Below are positions 7,124 through 8,886 of a DNA stretch of 64,000 nt, piece by piece; position 1 is the first letter of the stretch, and each line of letters opens with the position of its first letter. Position numbers and translations under genes: made by a program. The DNA is from Anabaena sphaerica FACHB-251 (GTDB lineage: Bacteria > Cyanobacteriota > Cyanobacteriia > Cyanobacteriales > Nostocaceae), in assembly GCF_014696825.1 (NCBI RefSeq), contig NZ_JACJQU010000001.1, forward strand, positions 434,001 to 498,000, read 5' to 3'. Below the pieces are notes generated by a model, which saw nothing but the letters and a program-made list of their open reading frames with translations, had not been told where the DNA came from and did no database searches.

Positions 7124-7747
7124 TCAACTTCCTTCTATGGCGGCGACTATACCGAAGATAATAAACAGAAAGCCGCCAAGGAAGGTAATTTGTCGTTCGG
7201 AAATTTTACCTGCAATTAATCTACCACCGATAACGGCGATCGCAGCGCAGATGGCGTGTCCTAAAATGGCTCCCAAAGTTACACCCATAGGGTTGTTACT
7301 CGCTGCTAGGGCAATGGTAGCTATTTGTGTGCGATCGCCCCACTCTGCTATAAATGTTAATACAAAGGATTTCAGTAACATTGACCATAAGCTTTTTTGC
7401 TGACTGTCTAAATCTGCCTTTTCTACTGCTTCTTTTGCTTCTTCTATTACTTCTGTATCACAAGCCACAGGCATTTTACTGGCATCGTAGAGCAGTTTTA
7501 AGCCAAAGGCAATAAACAAAACTATTTCCCCATAATGAACATAAAGTTTTGAGCCTTGTGTTAAAGTAGACAGTATTTGTCCAAATATCACTGATAAAAC
7601 TGTCATAGCTGCTAAAGCCGCTGTCACACCAGCAAACACTACCCGTCGTGAGTGCTGCATGGACAAAATTACAGCGATAAAAAAGGTTTTATCACCTAAT
7701 TCGGAAATGGTAATTAGTAGTAAACCTGCTGTAAATGCTGTTAACAC
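7124..7747 (-). CDS. mnx: GDT1/UPF0016 (TMEM165) family manganese exporter
   Basis: 207-residue polytopic membrane protein with the two family signatures E-x-G-D-K/R-T: ELGDKTF near residue 16 and EWGDRTQ near residue 136, each in the first helix of a three-helix half. A polar loop of about 40 residues joins the halves. Cyanobacterial members (Mnx in Synechocystis) export manganese from the cytosol into the thylakoid lumen. GTG start at 7747 with AGGAG nine bases upstream. The leader on the same strand carries a yybP-ykoY manganese riboswitch, terminator-like hairpin and promoter, which independently supports manganese handling. Confidence 0.9.
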   Translation of the reverse strand: MLTAFTAGLLLITISELGDKTFFIAVILSMQHSRRVVFAGVTAALAAMTVLSVIFGQILSTLTQGSKLYVHYGEIVLFIAFGLKLLYDASKMPVACDTEVIEEAKEAVEKADLDSQQKSLWSMLLKSFVLTFIAEWGDRTQIATIALAASNNPMGVTLGAILGHAICAAIAVIGGRLIAGKISERQITFLGGFLFIIFGIVAAIEGS

Positions 7748-7804
7748 TCTCTCAAGCTCCTAAAGGATTTTTTACCTGTGTGGAGCTTCTAATGAGATTT
7801 TAAA

Positions 7805-7853
7805 GACCTCACTGAAACTCACACACTCTTTTGGTGTGAATTCAGTGAAGGTC
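7805..7853 (-). terminator. Expression-platform hairpin of the manganese riboswitch
   Basis: Read on the minus strand, GACCTTCACTGAA (7853-7841) pairs with TTCAGTGAGGTC (7816-7805). The 5' arm includes the CCTTC that closes aptamer stem P1, so the two structures are mutually exclusive. Only a short U stretch (TTTAAAATCT) follows, so termination may be weak. Confidence 0.65.
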
Positions 7854-7958
7854 TCGCTTTCAAATATTTTGTTATTCGCCATCTGAACCAGGCTCATCGC
7901 CAGTATGTTGATTCAAATGTACTGGCTTTTTATGTCGCGCCAGCAGCTACTCCCCTTC
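7848..7958 (-). promoter_or_regulatory. yybP-ykoY manganese riboswitch aptamer
   Basis: Minus-strand RNA starting GAAGGGGAGTAGC, the hallmark 5' segment of the family. It contains a hairpin GCCAGTA...TACTGGC whose region carries the AACATACTG-type conserved loop, and ends with AGCGAGACCTTC, the conserved 3' segment. GAAGG (5') and CCTTC (3') close P1. It is about 100 bases upstream of a GDT1-family manganese exporter, one of the gene families known to be controlled by this riboswitch. Manganese binding should stabilise P1 and free the leader from the downstream hairpin, turning the exporter on. Confidence 0.88.
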
Positions 7959-7970
7959 TATTCGATGTGT

Positions 7971-7999
7971 ATTATACCTTGATGTCGGTTGGGAGTCAA
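7971..7999 (-). promoter_or_regulatory. Sigma70-type promoter of the mnx leader
   Basis: On the minus strand TTGACT (7999-7994), a 17-bp spacer, then TATAAT (7976-7971). The predicted start is about 7963-7965, only a few bases before the riboswitch, so spacing, motifs and context agree. Confidence 0.8.
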
Positions 8000-8201: not shown

Positions 8202-8501
8202 ATGCACCTTATTTCCATTCGCACCCTCCGCGAAGATGCAGCTAAATATCCCGATATCAAAAAACAAATTGATAATTGGTATGAAACTGTTAAAAAGGTC
8301 GAATGGCAAAATTTAGAGGATGTGCGTAAAATTTACCAAGATGCTGAAGCAGTTGGCAATTTTACTATTTTTAATATCAAAGGTAATGATTACCGATTGA
8401 TTGTAGGAATTAATTATGAGACAAAAAAGGTTTATTACAAATACTTGCTAACTCACGCGGAATACAATAAAGAGAAATGGAAAAATGACGATTACTTTTG
8501 A
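8202..8501 (+). CDS. higB: HigB-type mRNA interferase toxin
   Basis: 99-residue RelE-fold toxin of the HigB_toxin family, which cleaves mRNA on ribosomes. Family features are the N-terminal MHLISIRTLREDAAKYPD, an aromatic middle (NFTIFNIKGNDYRLIVGINYETKKVYY) and the C-terminal Y/H-rich YLLTHAEYNKEKWKNDDYF. It overlaps the following antitoxin gene by 17 bp, the toxin-first order usual for higBA. Upstream is the divergent mnx promoter region. Confidence 0.9.
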   Translation: MHLISIRTLREDAAKYPDIKKQIDNWYETVKKVEWQNLEDVRKIYQDAEAVGNFTIFNIKGNDYRLIVGINYETKKVYYKYLLTHAEYNKEKWKNDDYF

Positions 8502-8886
8502 CGATAAAACCTATAGTCAATTACTAGCTGAAATCGCTCCTCAAGTAATTGAAACTGAAGCTGAGTATGAACGTCTTTTAAAAGTTGTAGAATTTCTAAC
8601 TTTTAAAAAAAATCTTACCCCAGAGGAGCGAGCTTTAGATAAATTGATTGTCAGACTAATTGAAGATTATGAGGAAGAAAATTATCCTATGGATAAGTCT
8701 ACTCCTTATGAAATTTTACAACATATCATGGAATCTAGCGGAATTCGTCAAGCTGACTTAGTACGTATTCTTGGTTCTAGCAGCGGTGTGGTTTCTGAAG
8801 TTGTAAATGGTAAACGTTCCATTAGTAAAGCACAAGCAAAAGCTTTGGGAGAATATTTTAAGGTTTCTCCTAGTTTGTTTATTTGA
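8485..8886 (+). CDS. higA: HigA-type antitoxin with helix-turn-helix
   Basis: 133 residues. The N-terminal part (about 1-75) is a helical, acidic dimer/toxin-binding segment. The C-terminal part is a helix-turn-helix (about 77-130) containing IRQADLVRILGSSSGVVSEVVNGKRSISKAQAKALGEYF. It neutralises HigB and probably represses the shared promoter. It overlaps higB by 17 bp, implying coupled translation. Confidence 0.9.
   Translation: MTITFDDKTYSQLLAEIAPQVIETEAEYERLLKVVEFLTFKKNLTPEERALDKLIVRLIEDYEEENYPMDKSTPYEILQHIMESSGIRQADLVRILGSSSGVVSEVVNGKRSISKAQAKALGEYFKVSPSLFI

Follow-up and report, generated by a model that had tools for sequence, protein, structure and literature searches.

The leader of a GDT1/UPF0016 gene of Anabaena sphaerica FACHB-251 probably contains a yybP-ykoY riboswitch that, in response to Mn2+, would turn on the translation of a manganese exporter of the Mnx type. 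Photosynthetic water splitting takes place at a manganese centre, and too much of the metal is toxic. The window, by which is meant the whole 64,000-nucleotide stretch of DNA that was analysed, carries the leader and its gene on the minus strand, with the following features.

7971..7999, minus strand: sigma-70-type promoter, TTGACT-17-TATAAT, 11/12 consensus matches
7847..7958, minus strand: yybP-ykoY (Mn2+) aptamer, by homology, with P1, L1, P2, P3 with the L3 bulge, and P4
7805..7853, minus strand: core of the T hairpin (predicted OFF state), present in the unconstrained MFE; 7855-7803 with two more pairs
7778..7826, minus strand: AA helix (predicted ON state), T 3' strand 7826-7808 with D strand 7796-7778
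7754..7788, minus strand: S hairpin (predicted OFF state), present in the unconstrained MFE; masks the Shine-Dalgarno sequence
7757..7761, minus strand: Shine-Dalgarno sequence AGGAG, 9 nt ahead of the GTG start
7124..7747, minus strand: two-domain GDT1/UPF0016 gene, Mnx type, 207 aa, GTG start, Pfam PF01169 155 bits

A first-pass annotation made from the letters alone had proposed a consensus promoter here, and a UPF0016 gene downstream of the leader; both are borne out. The promoter is the best of eight promoter-like sites in 1.5 kb (shuffles give 4.1), and a -35/-10 pair with at most two mismatches per hexamer lies no more than 50 nt upstream of the aptamer in 123 of 142 related leaders. 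The gene product is of the Mnx type in that two GDT1 stretches (PF01169) fall within a single protein. The other GDT1 matches in the genome are two adjacent half-size frames on a different contig, and inspection by eye of the leader of this pair revealed no aptamer. The leader under study (7965-7745) has a folding energy 6.2 SD below that of shuffles. Its nearest named GDT1 loci are those of Sphaerospermopsis, Trichormus, Anabaena and Dolichospermum, and promoter, aptamer and hairpin recur as a set in relatives. Divergent from the leader, on the plus strand at 8202-8886 of the window, lies a toxin-antitoxin-like pair in which a HigB-type toxin gene (PF09907, 104 bits) overlaps an HTH_3 antitoxin-like gene.

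The aptamer and its family

In order along 7958-7847, the boxes of the aptamer are GAAGGGGAGTAGC...TCAACATACT...AGCGAGACCTTC. The L1 of the window copy is GGGGAGUAGC/AGCGAGACC, and its L3 is a 7-nt bulge, ACAUACU, in P3. The conserved L1 (GGGGAGUAGC / GCGAGACC) and L3 (CAACAUACU) of the Rfam family RF00080 are both present, in agreement with the consensus of the validated yybP-ykoY family. The RNA can be drawn as the four-way fold P1-P2-P3-P4, with P2, P3 and the bulge agreeing with the RF00080 alignment. A terminator-like call on the plus strand at 7899-7926 is the complement of stems P2 and P3.

Thirty cyanobacterial copies were aligned, two of 32 representatives being excluded for long insertions in P4 (L085, from Nostocales cyanobacterium HT-58-2, and L086, from Brasilonema sp. 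UFV-L1). The alignment contains 34 pairs, with 96.4% of cells paired, and in 12 of these pairs both bases change; shuffles average 4.0 such pairs, and 0/500 of them reached 12. The five outer pairs of P1 never vary and therefore provide no evidence either way. L1 is invariant except for one base in one copy, and L3 deviates in five of the 30 (ACAUGC, ACACAC); copies found with the three-box pattern were picked by their L1 and L3 boxes, so that their box conservation is in part a product of that selection.

The covariance search that the annotation had recommended gave a divided result. At the gathering cut-off, RF00080 has no match over the whole window; in a narrow search of 361 bases it matches the leader at 21.9 bits (E 3.1e-4), a hit that nonetheless lies well below the 45-bit cut-off. 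The mntP element of Escherichia coli, at 41.6 bits, also falls short of that cut-off, which is therefore too strict to define membership of the family, and the Rfam miss was rejected as an argument against the aptamer. Only two of the five control genomes that have a match pass, and the cut-off hides the cyanobacterial clade: none of 40 genomes from the window's family lies above it, with 34 of the 40 matched at E<=0.1. Across 18 loci, 17 were matched, with scores of 19.9-36.0 bits. A second RF00080 match in the A. sphaerica genome (contig 2, 20.4 bits) was set aside as chance; its L3 box is absent by eye and no GDT1 match lies downstream.

A covariance model, R1, was built from the 30 aligned copies. 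The window copy, itself in the training set, scores 119.4 bits, and the A. sphaerica genome has one match at E<=0.001. In an unfiltered search of E. coli, the two best R1 matches lie immediately ahead of mntP (45.8 bits, E 1.6e-10) and of alx (23.0 bits, E 4.9e-4), and the next one scores 11.9 bits. The weaker match, alx, also folds with a hairpin that shares the AGACCUU strand of P1; unlike the gene studied here, alx belongs to the TerC family (PMC9936198, in excerpt). The family, strand and parts named in the first-pass annotation hold up: by homology, the leader aptamer is a member of the yybP-ykoY family, and on the same ground it would bind Mn2+.

The expression platform

The annotation had further described a hairpin that can form only by breaking P1, and this holds. 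The strand GACCUUC (GACCTTC in the DNA) is common to the 5' side of T and the 3' side of P1: T consists of a 5' strand, GACCUUCACUGAAUUCACAC, overlapping the P1 3' strand, and a 3' strand, GUGUGUGAGUUUCAGUGAGGUC. The latter can pair alternatively with a downstream strand, D (CUCAUUAGAAGCUCCACAC), to give the AA helix, with 18 predicted pairs and one bulge per side. Within D, AAGCUCC can instead pair with GGAGCUU to form the S hairpin. Left unconstrained, the window leader folds into T plus S, with the ribosome site masked; when P1 is forced, the fold becomes P1 plus AA. The energy of AA is -24.8 kcal/mol, compared with -16.0 kcal/mol for T deprived of the bases shared with P1.

These predictions can be arranged into a switch. 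Without Mn2+, the T hairpin would take GACCUUC, the strand that would otherwise close P1, and with T formed the D strand would be free to pair with AGGAG, blocking the ribosome start. Mn2+, by docking L1 and L3, would allow P1 to reclaim GACCUUC, shortening T at its base; the T 3' strand would then pair better with D, and capture of D in AA would unmask the Shine-Dalgarno sequence, so that the exporter is made. From the energies and the nature of the target we infer that switching runs in this direction. As a platform it is of an ordinary sort, an anti-Shine-Dalgarno strand and its competitor.

Comparison was extended to 39 representative leaders with platforms under 85% alike, after seven of 149 leaders had been set aside because no GDT1 start could be recognised in them. 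Automatic segmentation of T was tried and replaced by motif anchoring: it found no T in 10 of the 39, in most cases owing to AA prevailing within the segment, and it gave spurious short stems in L150 and L160. When strands were exchanged between leaders, own partners paired with mean energies of -23.9 (AA), -23.2 (T) and -18.2 kcal/mol (S), as against -18.4, -20.3 and -14.5 kcal/mol for permuted partners, and for each helix 0/10000 permutations did as well as own partners. Two control pairings in the same 39 leaders had no effect (7067/10000 and 7294/10000). AA is stronger than the P1-shortened T in 38 of the 39, the exception being L157.

The platform alignment covers 37 of the leaders (L157 and L158 were excluded). 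AA has 87.2% of cells paired and 20 double-changed cells against 9.0 in shuffles (0/500 as many), and T has 94.1% paired and 22 double-changed cells against 8.0, with double changes in six of its 12 pairs; because the leaders are related by descent, these shuffle counts are not probabilities. Weaker measures were reached more often: for AA, the number of double-change pairs in 10/500 shuffles and of pair types in 5/500, and for T, the number of pair types in 8/500. Sliding the strands as a control brought paired cells down to 30-58% for AA and 30-40% for T. Column 44, in the T 3' strand, changes from A to G jointly with column 16 in T and with column 82 in AA. As far as these alignments can tell, T and AA are mutually exclusive helices that both covary.

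The predicted opening of the Shine-Dalgarno sequence was compared in 37 of the 39 leaders, L158 and L180 having no Shine-Dalgarno-like word. Forcing P1 raised it by a median of 1.57 log10, the average with shuffled linkers being -0.25 (p 3e-6); opening went up in 22 leaders, hardly changed in 10 and was reversed in five, so that 15 of 37 had no rise above 0.3 log10, a level exceeded by two of 37 shuffled linkers. Blocking the shared strand alone had a median effect of +1.87 (29/37 up by more than 0.3, one down), and blocking the opposite P1 strand one of -0.01 (4/37 up). In absolute terms the predicted opening is low even under forced P1 (1.3e-4 for the window leader), in part through pairing of AGGAG with coding-region bases in the fold, and such values hinge on the energy model used. 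By eye, the D strands of L159 and L184 carry CAUG and could mask the start codon.

Transcription or translation

The first-pass annotation had noted a short U-run after the hairpin and asked whether control lies at the end of transcription or at ribosome access. The U-run is indeed poor: at least six of the 8 nt after T are U in just six of 39 leaders, and the longest run is of 1-5. A consensus terminator scan of the window made no call at T. Of the two marks of an intrinsic terminator, a G+C-rich hairpin and a U-run after it, the hairpin is there and the U-run is poor. Together with the match of D to its own ribosome site, this favours translation, and folding predictions for 7804-7745, just beyond the piece that the annotation had described, point to the same answer. 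We therefore infer translational rather than transcriptional control.

To our knowledge cyanobacteria are without Rho, and no terminator-like tract was called here; both considerations weigh against a mixed arrangement, with translation as the main level and untranslated mRNA also being lost through termination or decay, which we regard as unlikely. It has a precedent in E. coli mntP, where transcription and translation levels can both act (PMC7838592, in excerpt) and Rho is used in addition to translational control (PMC11647493, in excerpt). That riboswitch resembles the present one in having an aptamer found by R1, a manganese exporter as its target and, according to the same excerpt (PMC11647493), an ON switch in which manganese frees the ribosome site; it differs in that the target is MntP rather than GDT1 and in the sequences and lengths of its stems.

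Control by transcription alone appears rather improbable. Here, T would be an intrinsic terminator and AA its antiterminator, with Mn2+ permitting read-through, as it does past the terminator of Bacillus-type yybP-ykoY members. The strength of T, its exclusion of P1 and the UCUUU(U) that follows it in many leaders are in keeping with such a scheme; the silence of the terminator scan at T and the short U-runs are not. Furthermore, D prefers its own Shine-Dalgarno or start region over swapped partners, a preference that a terminator would not need.

Distribution and significance in cyanobacteria

Of 386 genomes of the phylum, 34 contain the exact three-box pattern and none contains its reversed control. 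At E<=0.001, R1 matches at least 180 of 388 sampled genomes of the class, a lower bound because stricter search filters were in use. A Mnx-type GDT1 (E<=1e-30) is encoded in 244 of the same 388: 178 genomes have both riboswitch and Mnx, two the riboswitch only, 66 Mnx only and 142 neither. Thus, 178 of the 180 R1-positive genomes encode a Mnx-type GDT1, and with the stricter filters 66 of the 244 Mnx genomes are without a detected copy. At named cyanobacterial GDT1 loci, retrieved by protein and nearly all from Nostocales, the aptamer lies upstream in 80 of 80 (the best 80 of 371 relatives); the pattern with at most two substitutions finds 79 of them, and a more relaxed three-box rule the full set.

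A further 39 loci were inspected: 20 had been chosen for diversity and 19 came from multi-match genomes, L168 being a repeat of L153. Downstream of the aptamer lies GDT1 in 33, MntP in three, cytochrome b561 in one and nothing recognisable in two; a GDT1 or MntP gene hence follows in 36 of the 39. Since GDT1 and MntP are unrelated families of manganese exporter, their placement under one aptamer argues for manganese as the ligand. A variant aptamer for something other than Mn2+, be it another divalent metal or pH, is accordingly a very improbable reading: an Rfam score far under the cut-off and the slight variation of L3 in five of 30 aligned copies speak for it, and against it stand, besides the two exporter families, the fit of L1 and of the window L3 to the validated consensus and the fact that E. 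coli mntP shares the low Rfam score. That an ordinary leader with unrelated hairpins should resemble a riboswitch by chance, for which the lack of any hit at the Rfam gathering threshold might be adduced, is scarcely credible in view of the covariation, the presence of the aptamer at all 80 named loci examined (the top 80 among 371 relatives) and the recovery of E. coli mntP by R1.

Several loci depart from the usual arrangement. The aptamers ahead of an MntP-family exporter are L162, L177 and L178, of which the last two are identical, and by eye the platform of L162 is the same as that before GDT1, as though aptamer and platform travelled together. Genome G561 has, on contig 107, a tandem of two closely similar aptamers (L172, L171): the first precedes the cytochrome b561 gene and its platform is altered, and the second precedes GDT1. 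The two aptamers with no recognisable exporter downstream (L170, L185) are possibly decaying duplicates; their genomes have another copy before GDT1. Among eight genomes without an R1 match, two have a Mnx-type gene, five only a remote GDT1 and one none, and inspection by eye of the Mnx leaders of the first two, G051 and G014, revealed no aptamer. Three genomes of one genus (g27) encode Mnx; a riboswitch copy lies ahead of it in G091 and none was detected in G014 or G078, a difference that loss, acquisition by transfer or contamination could explain.

Some of this could have been anticipated from published work. An excerpt of a review (PMC7380456) states that in 328 of 333 screened strains bearing UPF0016 the gene is under a yybP-ykoY riboswitch; it names neither a cyanobacterial case nor an expression platform, and cyanobacteria may be among those 328. 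A 2013 survey (PMC3766115, likewise in excerpt) covered 14 cyanobacterial genomes and found yybP-ykoY in >75% of its groups, and it may have counted some cyanobacterial copies. In the literature searched, much of it in excerpt, no cyanobacterial yybP-ykoY element was described, though Dambach 2015 or Price 2015 could contain one, and neither was the relay logic of T, AA and S. As far as those sources extend, the aptamer family and the type of target are known, and the cyanobacterial copies and their platform are apparently undescribed.

A known relative of the gene product is Mnx/SynPAM71 of Synechocystis (sll0615), an exporter of the same UPF0016/GDT1 family. Mnx is reported both in the thylakoid and in the plasma membrane (PMC7020235, in excerpt), and the link between thylakoid manganese loading and cytosolic manganese that the first-pass annotation had suggested is a possibility. 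The available part of a 2024 paper (PMC11649195) names ManSR as the only system identified in the regulation of cyanobacterial manganese homeostasis. The same paper reports that the mnx transcript of the Synechocystis wild type is unchanged in excess manganese, a result that, assuming the element to be present in that strain, fits translational control and proves nothing. An Anabaena UPF0016 gene has been placed under ManS/ManR (PMC7380456, in excerpt), so that the riboswitch would not be the only control.

If the proposal is correct, a translational manganese riboswitch on an exporter gene would provide photosynthetic bacteria with an internal sensor of the metal, and control at this level would explain why transcript data could miss the response. 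The broader view, to which we would give somewhat better than an even chance, is of a hitherto unrecognised sensor of cytosolic Mn2+, present in much of the class, that governs the translation of Mnx through a five-segment relay (P1/T/AA/S); in some lineages D would mask not the Shine-Dalgarno sequence but the start codon. Such a sensor would be the missing response of oxygenic phototrophs to manganese excess, invisible to transcriptomics.
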